This document shows positions 2,727 to 9,476 of a stretch of DNA of 10,193 bases, one piece after another. The translations under genes were made by a program, and so were the position numbers. The notes below the pieces were generated by a model. The model made no database searches, was not told where the DNA came from, and was given only the letters and a program-made list of their open reading frames with translations. The first letter of the stretch is position 1. Every line of letters starts with the position of its first letter. Source of the DNA: Chitinophagales bacterium (GTDB lineage Bacteria; Bacteroidota; Bacteroidia; Chitinophagales; JADIYW01); contig JADLAH010000257.1 of NCBI GenBank assembly GCA_020848315.1, positions 1 through 10,193 on the forward strand. The letters are read 5' to 3'.

Positions 2727-3317
2727 ATGTTCGGACTCTTCAGCAAAAAACAACCGGCTTATATCATTCGTGATATCATCTGGAAAAGCAATGCAAAGAA
2801 AATACAGGCACTGACCACAGAATTGTCGGCACATGCAACCAAAACAATCATCATCACTTATTTTCCGGATACGCAGCGCGATGTAGAACAAGCATTGCAA
2901 ATGTCCGGCATTGCATACAGTCATGAAATAAACAGCCCAGAAAACGTGGTGGTGGCAAGTGCCGCTGTGCTTTCCAGAAGCTCAAGAAATCCGGTAGGAT
3001 ATCGCATCCTGTTCGCCGAACATCATCCTTCTTTCAAAAAAGAAGAAGCCTTGTTGCAGCGCATCACCGATGGAGGGACGAATATTCCGGTTACATTTTA
3101 TGTGGCTATGGATGAACCGCTGATGCAATTATTCGGCAGCGACAGAATCATGAGTGTGATGGAAAAAATGGGATTTCAGGAAGACGAGTCGATAGAACAC
3201 ACGATGATCAGCACCTCCATACAACGGGCACAGCAAAAGATAGATGAGCAACAAGCCTTCCCGCTGGAAGCAAACTCTGCGGCTTCGTGGCTGCAACTGA
3301 ATAATATCAGATTTTAA
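2727..3317 (+). CDS. Stand-alone SecA NBD2-like protein lacking ATPase motifs
   Basis: A 196-residue soluble protein. Residues 134-175 closely follow the end of SecA's second nucleotide-binding domain and the start of its helical scaffold: LFGSDRI (135-141), MEKMGF (145-150), then ESIEHTMISTSIQRAQQKID (154-173), where SecA has 'LFGSDRI..vMdrMGl..ge.I.H.miskSIerAQkKve'. Upstream, IWKSNAKKIQALTTEL...TIIITYFPDT...LQMSGIAYSHEIN (18-69) lines up with the NBD2 Rossmann start. Where SecA has motif V (TNMAGRGTD) this protein has ASAAVLSRSS, and where SecA has motif VI (QLRGRSGRQGDPG) it has LQRITDGGTNIP. NBD1, the preprotein-crosslinking domain and the zinc-binding tail are missing. It therefore cannot be a motor; it may be a binding or adaptor module. 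The role is unknown; context ties it to the oxidase subunit. The stop codon overlaps a 17-bp direct repeat. Confidence 0.72.
   Translation: MFGLFSKKQPAYIIRDIIWKSNAKKIQALTTELSAHATKTIIITYFPDTQRDVEQALQMSGIAYSHEINSPENVVVASAAVLSRSSRNPVGYRILFAEHHPSFKKEEALLQRITDGGTNIPVTFYVAMDEPLMQLFGSDRIMSVMEKMGFQEDESIEHTMISTSIQRAQQKIDEQQAFPLEANSAASWLQLNNIRF
3300..3316. repeat. 17-bp direct repeat, left copy
   Basis: AATAATATCAGATTTTA, identical to 4020-4036 and in the same orientation, 720 bp apart. This copy forms the last codons and part of the stop codon of the SecA-like gene (N-N-I-R-F-stop). Just inside the pair, composition drops to very AT-rich. Confidence 0.9.
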
Positions 3318-3348
3318 GACGCAGACAATATTTACTATACGTTATTCT

Positions 3349-3819
3349 TTACTTTTGAATAATAAGTTGTGGCGGTATGCCTAAATTTCTATGTATTGCA
3401 TTATTTATTTTCACACTACTAATAAACTTGTATTTATAACTTTTTTCACCACATTGTCTACACGTTTTATAATCAATTGTAAATTGTGAAACTTGATAAC
3501 CCATATTAAGATCTTTTACAAATAGAACATAATCATTACTGCCATCTATCTCATTTTTCAGGACACCTTCAAAAGAATTTATTGTAGCAGTGGGAATAAT
3601 GCTATCTATCCTTATACTATCTATTTTTGTTTGAAAGTTTGAGTTTAATGCATAGCTTACCAAATAGACACTGTCTAATTCCGATTTATCAAAATTTATA
3701 AATGAAATTCTTTTAACAGTATCTAATCCCTCACATATTTGAAACTCTTTCGTACAACAAGACGATAATATAAAAAGAGAAATCGAAATAACTACAACAT
3801 TAAATCCATAAACTTTCAT
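3349..3819 (-). CDS. Small hypothetical lipoprotein
   Basis: A 156-residue protein of no family I recognise. The N-terminus is a lipoprotein signal: basic start, hydrophobic stretch VVVISISLFI, and lipobox L18-S-S-C21, with Cys21 the lipidated residue and Cys22 next to it. The mature part is mostly beta-like and short of charged clusters, with further cysteines at 29, 120 and 123; the last two form FTIDYKTCRQCG. This resembles the general build of many small Bacteroidota lipoproteins exported to the outer membrane or periplasmic face. Codon use is strongly A/T-ending, unlike every adjacent gene, and the gene sits alone between the two 17-bp repeats, which points to acquisition. The ATG at 3819 is chosen because the signal peptide begins there. 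Function unknown. Confidence 0.72.
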   Translation of the reverse strand: MKVYGFNVVVISISLFILSSCCTKEFQICEGLDTVKRISFINFDKSELDSVYLVSYALNSNFQTKIDSIRIDSIIPTATINSFEGVLKNEIDGSNDYVLFVKDLNMGYQVSQFTIDYKTCRQCGEKSYKYKFISSVKINNAIHRNLGIPPQLIIQK

Positions 3820-3823
3820 AATA

Positions 3824-3854
3824 TAATTATTTATACTTTTTAAATAAATAATTA
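3824..3854. promoter_or_regulatory. 11-bp inverted repeat just upstream of the lipoprotein gene
   Basis: TAATTATTTAT (3824-3834) and ATAAATAATTA (3844-3854) are perfect reverse complements with a 9-bp spacer. The repeat ends 4 bp before the lipoprotein ATG. All bases of the arms are A or T, so chance is a real alternative in this composition. It could be an operator or a leader hairpin. Confidence 0.3.
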
Positions 3855-4019
3855 GGATTGATAAAACAAATTAAATATAAAACATTTTTTTTTAAAAGTA
3901 TCTATATCCTACACTTTTTTAGAAAAACCACCTAAAATAAAAAAATAAATGTAATTAAAAGTTTTACCTAAAGTATTTAAACAATAAAGACACAAAAGAT
4001 TCTTCTAAAAAGCACCACA

Positions 4020-4036
4020 AATAATATCAGATTTTA
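4020..4036. repeat. 17-bp direct repeat, right copy
   Basis: Same 17 bases as 3300-3316. Its last three bases (TTA at 4034-4036) are the TAA stop of the threonine aldolase gene on the minus strand. Identity ends at 4037 (G here, A at 3317) and before 4020 (A at 4019, G at 3299). Confidence 0.9.
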
Positions 4037-5080
4037 GGCTATCGGCTGATATGCCTTCAACACTTCTCCAATCCTTACTACCATCTGCGGGGTAACATCC
4101 AGGTGTGTGACCATTCGTATCTGCTGCGGTCCGAACTGCACCGCCAGTATGTGATTTTCCTTCAGATAATCTAGCACCTGTGCAACGGTGGCAACCGTAT
4201 CTTCCACTTCAAATAATAAGATATTGGTGACAGGTGACCATACTTTTTTCACCCAGGATAATTCCGCTAATACATCCGCCAATTGTCTGGCATGGTCGTG
4301 GTCGATTACCAGTCTGCCGACGTTATTTTCCAGTGCATACAAGCAAGCTGCCGCCAGAAAGCCAGCCTGCCGCATACCGCCACCGAAAGCCTTGCGCACC
4401 CGACGTGCCTGCCGGATAAATGACTTACTGCCGGTCAGCACGCTGCCCACAGGGGCGCCCAGTCCTTTGGAAAAGCAGATAGACAGCGAATCTGCCGCTG
4501 CACCCATATCTGCCGTCTGCTGTCCGGTGGCCACCATCGCATTGAAGATGCGCGCACCGTCTATATGCAGTTTCAGATTCCGCTGCAGACACAAGGCCCG
4601 GATAGCCTGTATTTCCGACAAAGTGTAACAAGTGCCTCCACCCTTATTGCTGGTATGTTCGAGACAGACCAGACTAGTTTTCGGGAGCCAGTCGAAATCC
4701 GGTTGTATATTGGCTGCCACCTGCGCGGCCGTCATGATGCCGCGCTCACCGTCGACGAGCTTGACGGAGACACCGGAATGAAAGGCGAATCCCGCGGTTT
4801 CGTAGTAATAGATATGCGCGGTTTTATCCAGGATAATTTCATCCATCGGCTGCGTATGCGCCTTCACCGCAATCTGATTGGCCATGGTGCCGCTCGCGCA
4901 AAACAAACCCGCTTCGTGTCCGAACATAGCGGCCACTTTTTCTTCCAGTTCCGTCACCGTCGGATCTTCCCCGAATACATCATCGCCCACTTTAGCATGC
5001 AACATCGCCTGCAGCATAGCTGCTGACGGCTTTGTTACGGTATCACTGCGGACATCAATCAGAATGTTTGTATTATCCAT
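4034..5080 (-). CDS. Low-specificity L-threonine aldolase (PLP enzyme)
   Basis: A 348-residue cytoplasmic fold-type I pyridoxal-phosphate enzyme that cleaves L-threonine or L-allo-threonine to glycine and acetaldehyde. Family landmarks in order: DVRSDTVTKP (9-18), the cofactor-phosphate loop CASGTMANQ (61-69), TAHIYYYETAG with His89, the residue that stacks on the cofactor ring, HIDGAR with Asp174 and Arg177, and SICFSKGLGAPVGS, where Lys205 forms the Schiff base. KAFGGGMRQAG (230-240) is also characteristic. Length is normal and all key residues are present, so it should be active. The ATG overlaps the stop of the rhomboid gene in TAATG, indicating translational coupling. The stop lies in the 17-bp direct repeat that bounds the AT-rich islet. 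The symbol ltaE is used for such enzymes but the exact stereospecificity cannot be told. Confidence 0.95.
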   Translation of the reverse strand: MDNTNILIDVRSDTVTKPSAAMLQAMLHAKVGDDVFGEDPTVTELEEKVAAMFGHEAGLFCASGTMANQIAVKAHTQPMDEIILDKTAHIYYYETAGFAFHSGVSVKLVDGERGIMTAAQVAANIQPDFDWLPKTSLVCLEHTSNKGGGTCYTLSEIQAIRALCLQRNLKLHIDGARIFNAMVATGQQTADMGAAADSLSICFSKGLGAPVGSVLTGSKSFIRQARRVRKAFGGGMRQAGFLAAACLYALENNVGRLVIDHDHARQLADVLAELSWVKKVWSPVTNILLFEVEDTVATVAQVLDYLKENHILAVQFGPQQIRMVTHLDVTPQMVVRIGEVLKAYQPIA

Positions 5081-6563: not shown

Positions 6564-6617
6564 TTCCATAGTATTTAGGCCAGGGTTCACTATCTTTATA
6601 GTATAAATACTATGGAA
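6564..6617. promoter_or_regulatory. 14-bp perfect inverted repeat in the divergent promoter region
   Basis: TTCCATAGTATTTA (6564-6577) and TAAATACTATGGAA (6604-6617) are exact reverse complements separated by 26 bp. The right arm also contains part of ATAGTAT-AA-ATACTAT (6597-6612), so the ATAGTAT word occurs three times. The repeat fills the gap between the reductase gene and the divergent DUF4377 gene, so both starts are preceded by the same sequence in mirror image. A shared operator or a promoter-region hairpin are both possible. Confidence 0.55.
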
Positions 6618-8689
6618 TGAAATATTTTTTGTTTTTCTCAATATCATTTTTTGCCGGTTTTATAGCAAAAACACAATCTTATAATCCTGCCGTACAAACA
6701 TGGGTAATCAGTTCGGAAACCACCCCGTGCGAATCCGATCCTGACAAAGCTTGTTTACTGTATAAAGCAACCGGAAAGAAAGAATTTGAAATCCTGCCGG
6801 AGCCTATTGAGGGCTTTCAATATTCAGAAGGAAATGAATATACAATACAGGTAAAACAGGAAATCAAAAAACCACCTATTGCAGCCAATGAATCTGTATT
6901 TAAATATGTGCTGGTAAAAATAGTATCACAGAAACAACCTACACCTGCTCCGTCCGTAACTTCGACCAGTGGTCAGATTATCTTTGAGGTAAATTTCGAA
7001 TCTCTACCTTGCGAAGAAGACCCGAGTAAATCCTGTTTACTGGTAAGAAAAAAAGGGGCGAAAGAGTTTGAAATCCTCAATGCCAGTATATATGGTTTTA
7101 ATTACGAAAACGGATATACGTACATGATTGCGGTAAAACCTACCAGCAATGGTAATTATTACCTCGTTAATGAAATCAGCAAAAAATTTGTACAAAAAAG
7201 TGCGCAAACCTATACCCCGTTATCAAACGGCAATGCGGAAAATAACAAACCTATTATCGGTACTACCAACATCACCACCTCCTCTACCTTAGATGGCAAA
7301 TGGTATTTACGCAAGATGAAAGAAAAAGAAGGGGCCAGCTTCGTGACCGATGATAACATTATGTACATTGATATCAATACATTCAAAGACAGAATCGATG
7401 GTTTCGGGGCCTGCAACAAGTTTTCTGCCGTCATAAAATCAGATTTAAATACGACGTTTGAAGTATCTAAACTAACTTATAACTACGTTAATTGTGGCAA
7501 CAAGAAAATTGAAGATTTATTTTTCTCATTATTACAGGAAGCCAATAAATTTGAGGTCAGAAACGGACATCTTATCCTGTCTTACAACTGGAAGTATGTA
7601 TTAGAGTTTGTTGCTGATCCTAATAACAAGGAAGATATTGCCAGCACCTACGTGCCGGCAGCCATCATTGAAAAGGAAAATAAAACCTTTGCTACTGACC
7701 AGTACAAAAAAGAACCGGAAAACAAACCATCCGCTTCTGTTACCAAAAAGCCTGAAGTAGACGACCTGCAGAAACAACTGGAAGACTTACAGAAACAACT
7801 CGCGGAGAAGAAAGTAAAAGAAGAAGAGACATTGCAGAAGGAGGCGGCAGACAAACTGCAGAAAGAACAGGAAGCTGCTTTGTTGAAGAAGCAATTAGCA
7901 GAAAAGGCCGCTAAAGAAGCGGAAGAAAAAAGGCTCGCAGAAGAAAAGGCAAAACAAGAGCAGGAAATAGCAAAAAAACTGAAGGAAATTGAAGATCTGA
8001 AAAAACAACTCGCGGAGAAAGAAAAAATTTTAACATCAAATACAACTCAAAAAGAAAATTACACTTCAAACAACACAAGCCAGGCTAACGCAACTAAAAA
8101 GGTGGAAAGTGTAATAGAAGAAAAGCCGGCAGAAAAGAATGTTTCACCTAATTATGTAATAACAGAATTTACACCTAACAATTCAAATAGCAATATCCCA
8201 GACCCTCAATTTGCAGGGAGACCCTATTATTTAGACGGAAATACACTTAAGAATTTAGAAAGAATTGATGCAACTTATGACATGAAGATAAAAGGAATAT
8301 ACAGAGGTTCCGAGCAATATTTAACTGCATTTAATCCTGAATCTACTTTACAGTTCAAAGAGAATAATTTACCAAGAATTTTTATTAAAATTACAGGAGA
8401 AGTCGATCCTTATGATATAATCGATTTTAGTAAAGCCATTGAAAAAAATGACAGAAGGAGATTCAAAGTAGGAGACAGAAAACTCGGTGGAAAAGCAAAA
8501 GACATTACAGAAAACTTTATTCAACTTGACTTCGTACAAATTAGAGACGGGCTATATGAAATTATAATACCATCAAATTTAGAAGTTGGAGAATATGGTT
8601 TTTTACCAATTCTTGAGGGTAATAACTCTTTATTCTCAGGAAGTTCGAGTAGCAGCACTAAAATCAGTTGTTTTGGCATAGCTCCATAA
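6617..8689 (+). CDS. Secreted DUF4377-DUF4377-META protein with coiled coil
   Basis: A 690-residue exported protein. A signal peptide occupies about residues 1-20 (MKYFLFFSISFFAGFIAK). Two DUF4377 repeats follow, at about 27-103 and 119-193, each with W/F-containing start, a Cys pair about 8 residues apart (C38/C46, C132/C140), 'CLL' after the second Cys, and the 'I.GF.Y..G..Y...V' end. Next is a META/HslJ-like domain (225-333) opening with DGKWYLRKM and carrying GFGACNKF (262-269) and C293. Residues about 380-471 form a long Lys/Glu/Gln coiled coil with repeated LQKQL and KKQLAEK units; the DNA word AAACAACTCGCGGAGAA occurs at both 7793 and 8003. The last part (about 510-690, FAGRPYYLD... 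GEYGF) is a separate domain seen in Bacteroidota proteins of unknown role; its DNA is more AT-rich. DUF4377 and META domains are typical of envelope proteins; function here is unknown. A small paralogue follows. Confidence 0.82.
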   Translation: MKYFLFFSISFFAGFIAKTQSYNPAVQTWVISSETTPCESDPDKACLLYKATGKKEFEILPEPIEGFQYSEGNEYTIQVKQEIKKPPIAANESVFKYVLVKIVSQKQPTPAPSVTSTSGQIIFEVNFESLPCEEDPSKSCLLVRKKGAKEFEILNASIYGFNYENGYTYMIAVKPTSNGNYYLVNEISKKFVQKSAQTYTPLSNGNAENNKPIIGTTNITTSSTLDGKWYLRKMKEKEGASFVTDDNIMYIDINTFKDRIDGFGACNKFSAVIKSDLNTTFEVSKLTYNYVNCGNKKIEDLFFSLLQEANKFEVRNGHLILSYNWKYVLEFVADPNNKEDIASTYVPAAIIEKENKTFATDQYKKEPENKPSASVTKKPEVDDLQKQLEDLQKQLAEKKVKEEETLQKEAADKLQKEQEAALLKKQLAEKAAKEAEEKRLAEEKAKQEQEIAKKLKEIEDLKKQLAEKEKILTSNTTQKENYTSNNTSQANATKKVESVIEEKPAEKNVSPNYVITEFTPNNSNSNIPDPQFAGRPYYLDGNTLKNLERIDATYDMKIKGIYRGSEQYLTAFNPESTLQFKENNLPRIFIKITGEVDPYDIIDFSKAIEKNDRRRFKVGDRKLGGKAKDITENFIQLDFVQIRDGLYEIIIPSNLEVGEYGFLPILEGNNSLFSGSSSSSTKISCFGIAP

Positions 8690-8771: not shown

Positions 8772-9476
8772 ATGCGATATTTTTATTTACTCTTTGCTCT
8801 CTGCATTTGTTTACAGATGAATGCTCAAAATGCCGGCAAACGCCATACCTGGCAGATTGCCTATACTACTAAACCTTGCCCTTCCGCGCCTGAAAAATCC
8901 TGTTTGCAGTATAAATCCAGTGACATGAAAGAATTCGAGGTACTCGACGGTGTTATCGCCGGATTTCAATATGAGGAAGGATACAGTTATCAGATAACTG
9001 TGAAAACCGACAGCAGCGGCCACTACACGCTGGTGAAAGAAAAGAGTAAAAAATTTGTACAGACACCGCCGCCCGCTCCTGTCGATACCGTACCTGCGGC
9101 TCCGCTGCCGGATACGCTCGCCGGAAATCCGGATGGCAAATGGTATCTCCGCAAACTCATCGACCCTGCCGGCGTTACCTACGCGTCTGACCACAATATT
9201 ATCTGGGTGGAACTGTCGCTGGAAAACGGCCGGATCAGCGGCTTCGGCGCCTGCAACGCATTCACGGCTACTGTCAGCCAGGGCACGCAGCGCCAACTGA
9301 CCGTCAGCGATATCGCCAGTGACAGCACCTACTGCGGCAACAAGAAAATTGAAGACATGTTTTACAAATTCCTGCTGCTATCAGAACAATATGAGATGCG
9401 GGAAGGCCAGCTGGATCTGATTTACAAAGGCAAAAAAATCCTGTCTTTCGTCGCGCTTCCGGCCAACAAGAATTAA
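8772..9476 (+). CDS. Secreted DUF4377-META protein, paralogue of the preceding gene
   Basis: A 234-residue exported protein with a signal peptide at about 1-18 (MRYFYLLFALCICLQMNA). It has one DUF4377 domain (about 26-97; C36, C44, CLQYK, VIAGFQYEEGYSYQITV), a Pro-rich linker (98-118), and a META/HslJ-like domain (119-226) with DGKWYLRKL, GFGACNAF (157-164) and C188. It matches the second DUF4377 repeat plus META domain of the upstream protein nearly end to end, including KKFVQ after DUF4377 and YCGNKKIEDMF/NCGNKKIEDLF. At DNA level GGCAACAAGAAAATTGAAGA is shared by 7496-7515 and 9336-9355. This protein lacks the coiled coil and C-terminal domain, and its codons are more GC-rich, so the duplication is old or the copies have different histories. 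An 82-bp gap separates the two genes. Probably periplasmic; the role is unknown, possibly envelope stress as for HslJ. Confidence 0.85.
   Translation: MRYFYLLFALCICLQMNAQNAGKRHTWQIAYTTKPCPSAPEKSCLQYKSSDMKEFEVLDGVIAGFQYEEGYSYQITVKTDSSGHYTLVKEKSKKFVQTPPPAPVDTVPAAPLPDTLAGNPDGKWYLRKLIDPAGVTYASDHNIIWVELSLENGRISGFGACNAFTATVSQGTQRQLTVSDIASDSTYCGNKKIEDMFYKFLLLSEQYEMREGQLDLIYKGKKILSFVALPANKN

Follow-up and report, generated by a model that had tools for sequence, protein, structure and literature searches.

How a small foreign gene reached a bacterial chromosome can rarely be seen. At one locus of a Chitinophagales bacterium, where the edges of an AT-rich stretch can be read to the base, the question is how a single lipoprotein gene came to settle between two convergent genes and leave both whole. 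The window (the entire stretch of DNA analysed, 10,193 nucleotides, contig C257) belongs to a draft genome (352 contigs, 2.22 Mb, 85% complete), and the features concerned are the following.

2727..3317, plus strand: SecA-like gene, 196 aa, matching the end of the SecA P-loop domain (PF21090)
3300..3316, plus strand: left copy of the 17-bp direct repeat, holding the end of the SecA-like gene
3317..4019, no strand: AT-rich insert, 703 bp, GC 0.243, delimited by composition
3349..3819, minus strand: lipoprotein gene, 156 aa, without a Pfam match, the sole gene of the insert
3820..4019, no strand: upstream part of the insert, 200 bp, GC 0.17, without an Rfam match
4020..4036, plus strand: right copy of the repeat, which ends in the three bases of the aldolase stop
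4034..5080, minus strand: threonine aldolase-like gene, 348 aa (PF01212)

The direct repeat (AATAATATCAGATTTTA) is perfect, with exact copies at 3300-3316 and 4020-4036, which bears out the original prediction that the same 17 bases overlap the stops of both genes: the left copy overlaps the TAA of the SecA-like gene (3315-3317), and the right copy ends in the stop of the convergent aldolase-like gene (4034-4036). The DNA between the copies, described by the same prediction as AT-rich and as carrying a single lipoprotein gene, has a GC content of 0.243 (3317-4019) compared to 0.461 (2727-3299) and 0.527 (4037-5080) on its two sides. A two-state segmentation on G+C only, blind to the repeat, returned an island at 3300-4036, and because it used G+C alone, repeat and composition give the same edges independently. 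That the repeat is an assembly artefact or the product of chance is scarcely credible: the genome is a draft of 352 contigs and the linkage is seen on one contig only, but the usual assembly words are longer than 17 bases; the longest word shared by shuffled 100-bp junction windows (5,000 pairs, 7 of which reached 12 bases) was 13 compared to the 17 observed; and public data hold both a protein cluster (21 members) whose representative is 99% identical to the lipoprotein and a cluster (26 members) that is 98% identical to the SecA-like protein with the same C-terminus, although the linkage of the two was not seen there.

Collapsing the repeat to one copy had been expected to restore a compact convergent junction, and in silico it does so: the SecA-like protein (196 aa) is unchanged, now ending in TAG, and the aldolase (348 aa) is likewise unchanged and overlaps the SecA-like gene by 4 bp at the stops. 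A stand-alone SecA P-loop-like gene (L069-L073) is present in six of the eight genomes of the genus, this one included, separate from the match to full-length SecA, and its last residues differ between genomes; when genome_contigs was scanned with the SecA-like protein, no relative turned up. Elsewhere in the window, two adjacent genes (6617-8689 and 8772-9476), both with DUF4377 and META domains, look like diverged tandem duplicates.

Both neighbour genes occur in a window-like arrangement in only one congener, the Chitinophagales MAG SJ124 (G007; L004, L069), in which the SecA-like and aldolase genes converge with a 17-bp overlap and no lipoprotein gene between them. This congener is distant (its aldolase is 68% and its SecA-like protein 43% identical to those of the window); the locus used (L080, on the G007 contig) was among the best 80 of 569 loci in an aldolase alignment scan. 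The expectation of an empty site with one copy of the 17-mer in relatives thus held for the empty junction and failed for the 17-mer, which is absent from the junction of G007, and because of this absence the agreement between the 17-bp overlap in G007 and the 17-bp repeat in the window is read as probably a coincidence. In the other congeners, the SecA-like gene directly faces a rhomboid-like gene without the aldolase (G004, G006) or has other neighbours (G003, G005), or the aldolase lies near a cox-like gene without the SecA-like gene (G001, G002). In G001, the DNA that separates the aldolase from the cox-like gene (L005, 2100-2700) holds two near-identical tandem copies (~200 bp, non-coding) with GCACC...GGTGC hairpins followed by T runs. 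The lipoprotein gene is not clade-wide at this place, from which it is absent in all seven congeners, and no same-species empty allele was seen. The repeat, the composition edges, the intact collapsed genes and the empty site of G007 together show, therefore, that DNA was inserted here where two convergent genes meet and that 17 bp of the target were duplicated; the predicted entry of a unit of about 720 bp, with 17 bp duplicated and neither gene harmed, agrees with the empty site and the collapsed junction.

The repeat might be a property of the lipoprotein gene and not of its insertion at this place. The 156-aa protein has a lipobox-like LSSCC, and its N-terminus resembles a lipoprotein signal; three more public proteins (P0002-P0004) are 61-65% identical to it, a profile search reaches 16 proteins, and the predicted fold is strand-rich (mean pLDDT 84.4) without a PDB match at E ≤ 0.001. 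No relative was found in viral contigs. Homologues are patchy, being present in 38 of the 396 genomes of the order that were searched, and G002 carries one (36% identical) at another place. The neighbours of the homologues differ in each of the five loci read, at none of which does a direct repeat of at least 12 bases tightly bound the lipoprotein gene; on L067, a 13-bp repeat that may be due to chance spans the lipoprotein gene together with a neighbouring ORF. With the window counted among 31 loci, the longest boundary word averaged 9.3 bases compared to 8.7 in mismatched pairs, a mean that retains at least five rows (L160, L165, L168, L170, L188) in which a neighbouring ORF was mistaken for the lipoprotein gene; the longest boundary word apart from that of the window was 14, and loci of related genomes are the probable source of the 40-base maximum among the controls. 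The idea that the lipoprotein family brings its own boundary repeats was rejected, and because no comparable boundary repeat occurs at the homologue loci examined, the 17-bp repeat seems to be tied to the window's insertion, not to this family of genes.

Transposition is marked by direct repeats and an empty site, and the insert could be a transposon remnant or passenger unit with an unusually long target duplication of 17 bp. This is very improbable, however: no terminal inverted repeat was found between the insert ends when the outer 60 bp of each were compared (longest shared word 6, equalled in 76% of shuffles); the sole gene of the insert has no Pfam match, so that no transposase is recognised in the unit; 17 bp is an unusual length for a transposon target duplication; and BLAST of the same genome with 3250-4090 matched only itself. 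There was also no Rfam match in 3200-4150 and no match to plasmid DNA at megablast level.

Inverted repeats do bound other inserts of this genome. Genes of the 23S_rRNA_IVP family (PF05635) form AT-rich inserts between genes at 1532-2009 of L262 (C275) and 691-1080 of L232 (C244), where the flanking genes look to us like parts of cys and suf operons, and the boundaries are inverted repeats of 19/20 bases on L262 and a perfect 18-mer on L232. Among PF05635 loci of the genus (L314-L343; 30 fetched, 7 dropped as too short, 23 tested), inverted boundary words of at least 12 bases were found in 7 of 23 compared to 5.1% of mismatched pairs, and direct boundary words were not above control. The anatomy of these inserts looks like that of rRNA intervening sequences, but they adjoin protein-coding genes.

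A search for other AT-rich inserts with gene-end duplications had also been proposed, and was made in 120 of the 351 other contigs of the genome (0.77 Mb), the last 20 of which were scanned for direct repeats only. The window and the first 100 contigs contain 14 internal AT-rich islands of at least 250 bp, with boundary words of at least 10 bases in five (compared to 8.8% of control pairs) and of more than 12 bases in two, namely that of the window and one on C10 (L198), the maximum in mismatched pairs being 12. On C10 (region 10024-14688), a 78-bp repeat with one mismatch (11106-11183 and 13535-13612) encloses a gene resembling those for membrane proteins (GC 0.25), together with the body of a glycosyltransferase-like gene (GC 0.28), flanked by a homologue of the glycosyltransferase-like gene (GC 0.42) and by an epimerase-like gene (GC 0.46). 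These gene names are our own reading; Pfam gave no match for the membrane-protein-like gene, the glycosyltransferase-like gene or its homologue. In G003 and G006, a single glycosyltransferase-like gene is followed after 3 bp by the epimerase-like gene (87% identical), which is the empty arrangement of the C10 insert. The two inserts are alike in their AT-richness, in duplicating the 3' end of a gene and in keeping the genes intact. The C10 insert includes a gene homologous to its target (45% identical, in register through the repeat), and because of this a homologous crossover explains it well. The search thus yielded one comparable insert, but with a 78-bp repeat, an unrelated gene and an origin that need not share the mechanism of the window insert; it offers a parallel and does not prove a common mechanism. 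A 29-bp direct repeat on C46 (L294) was rejected as a further case, as it lies within tandemly arrayed genes for Crp-like regulators, whose paralogy accounts for it.

The original prediction had suggested that the insert may be a non-autonomous type of cassette that makes use of gene 3' ends. The 17-mer would then be an attachment core located at the 3' end of a gene, where a recombinase supplied in trans integrated a one-gene circle. Integrases with gene ends as targets use cores that restore the gene, the core here spans the gene ends and restores both genes, and the genome itself has three matches to the phage-integrase family; however, the window showed no ORF recognisable as a recombinase (six of its proteins scanned against Pfam), the C10 duplication differs in length and sequence, and the homologous lipoprotein genes lack such edges at the loci examined. 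A search of the host genome, which the prediction had proposed, indicated that the 17-mer is not a common repeat: allowing up to three mismatches there were 30 matches compared to 15 for a reversed control pattern, of which two were exact (both in the window), none had one mismatch, one had two (on C37, in unremarkable surroundings) and the remaining 27 had three. As a reused core the 17-mer was therefore rejected, the best match beyond both window copies in this 85% complete draft having two mismatches. With the core not reused, no inverted repeat and no such edges at the homologue loci examined, the cassette is unlikely and that part of the prediction was not upheld. It is quite improbable that a trans-acting system brings AT-rich single-gene units into the genus with a preference for the 3' ends of genes, of which it copies stretches of variable length, the inserts duplicated by 17 bp and 78 bp in this one genome (the latter possibly a homologous crossover) being its products; if it did, every gene at an insertion site would stay intact.

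The absence of a terminal inverted repeat and of a recognised recombinase in the insert, the core that is not reused and the differing duplications argue against a transposon or site-specific cassette and for recombinase-independent insertion. The favoured reading, to which we assign a probability of roughly 0.75, is recombinase-independent capture of an AT-rich fragment with a 17-bp duplication, kept by selection. Foreign-looking AT-rich DNA of 703 bp with one lipoprotein gene would have entered a convergent junction with a 4-bp stop overlap, and no dedicated recombinase would have been needed. As to the manner of the duplication, we infer that the most likely route was a staggered break with ends about 17 nt apart, filled in around the captured fragment, as such fill-in would duplicate 17 bases without prior homology; a circle already carrying the 17 bases could have given the same product by one crossover, and is less likely. 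For capture at a staggered break, Ku-dependent end joining is unlikely because Ku was not found in this genome (it was found in only one of the eight genomes of the genus), and joining would have to be Ku-independent. Selection would then have retained the outcome, because the duplicated shared end gives each gene its own stop: insertions that broke a gene would have been lost, whereas duplication across overlapping stops would harm neither gene. The site thus suggests how an insertion is tolerated where overlapping stops are duplicated, and given same-species empty alleles it would be a test case for single-gene integration without a dedicated recombinase.

A literature search with narrow terms returned no match, from which absence from print is not claimed, and three known processes invite comparison. 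Homology-facilitated illegitimate recombination combines homologous exchange at one end with illegitimate joining at the other (PMC3240628); it fits the 78-bp insert of C10, whereas the window insert has no long homology to its site beyond 17 bp. In Arabidopsis, genes other than transposons have changed position; they lie between direct repeats, which in many cases match the orthologous empty site (PMC2869330), but the host is a eukaryote and the authors consider circles besides target duplication. The settling of single genes in a chromosome by insertion with duplication of the target is a known route that is poorly understood, and the window offers a clean example of it. Insertion with long target duplication was reportedly described by Nobusato et al. 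in 2000 in H. pylori. Later papers (PMC3031569, PMC1643837, PMC3154945) present insertion with a long, variable target duplication in H. pylori, mostly of restriction-modification genes and in two strains of one species, in which the inserted gene is bounded by direct repeats of the target, as in the window, and no dedicated element is named. The window differs in that the insert, in the draft genome of a Chitinophagales bacterium, carries a lipoprotein gene, the 17 bp lie across two overlapping stops, the empty site is that of a distant congener, and restriction-modification cargo, frequent and not defining in the H. pylori class, is absent. In structure the window insert resembles the H. pylori long-target-duplication class; cargo and host differ.
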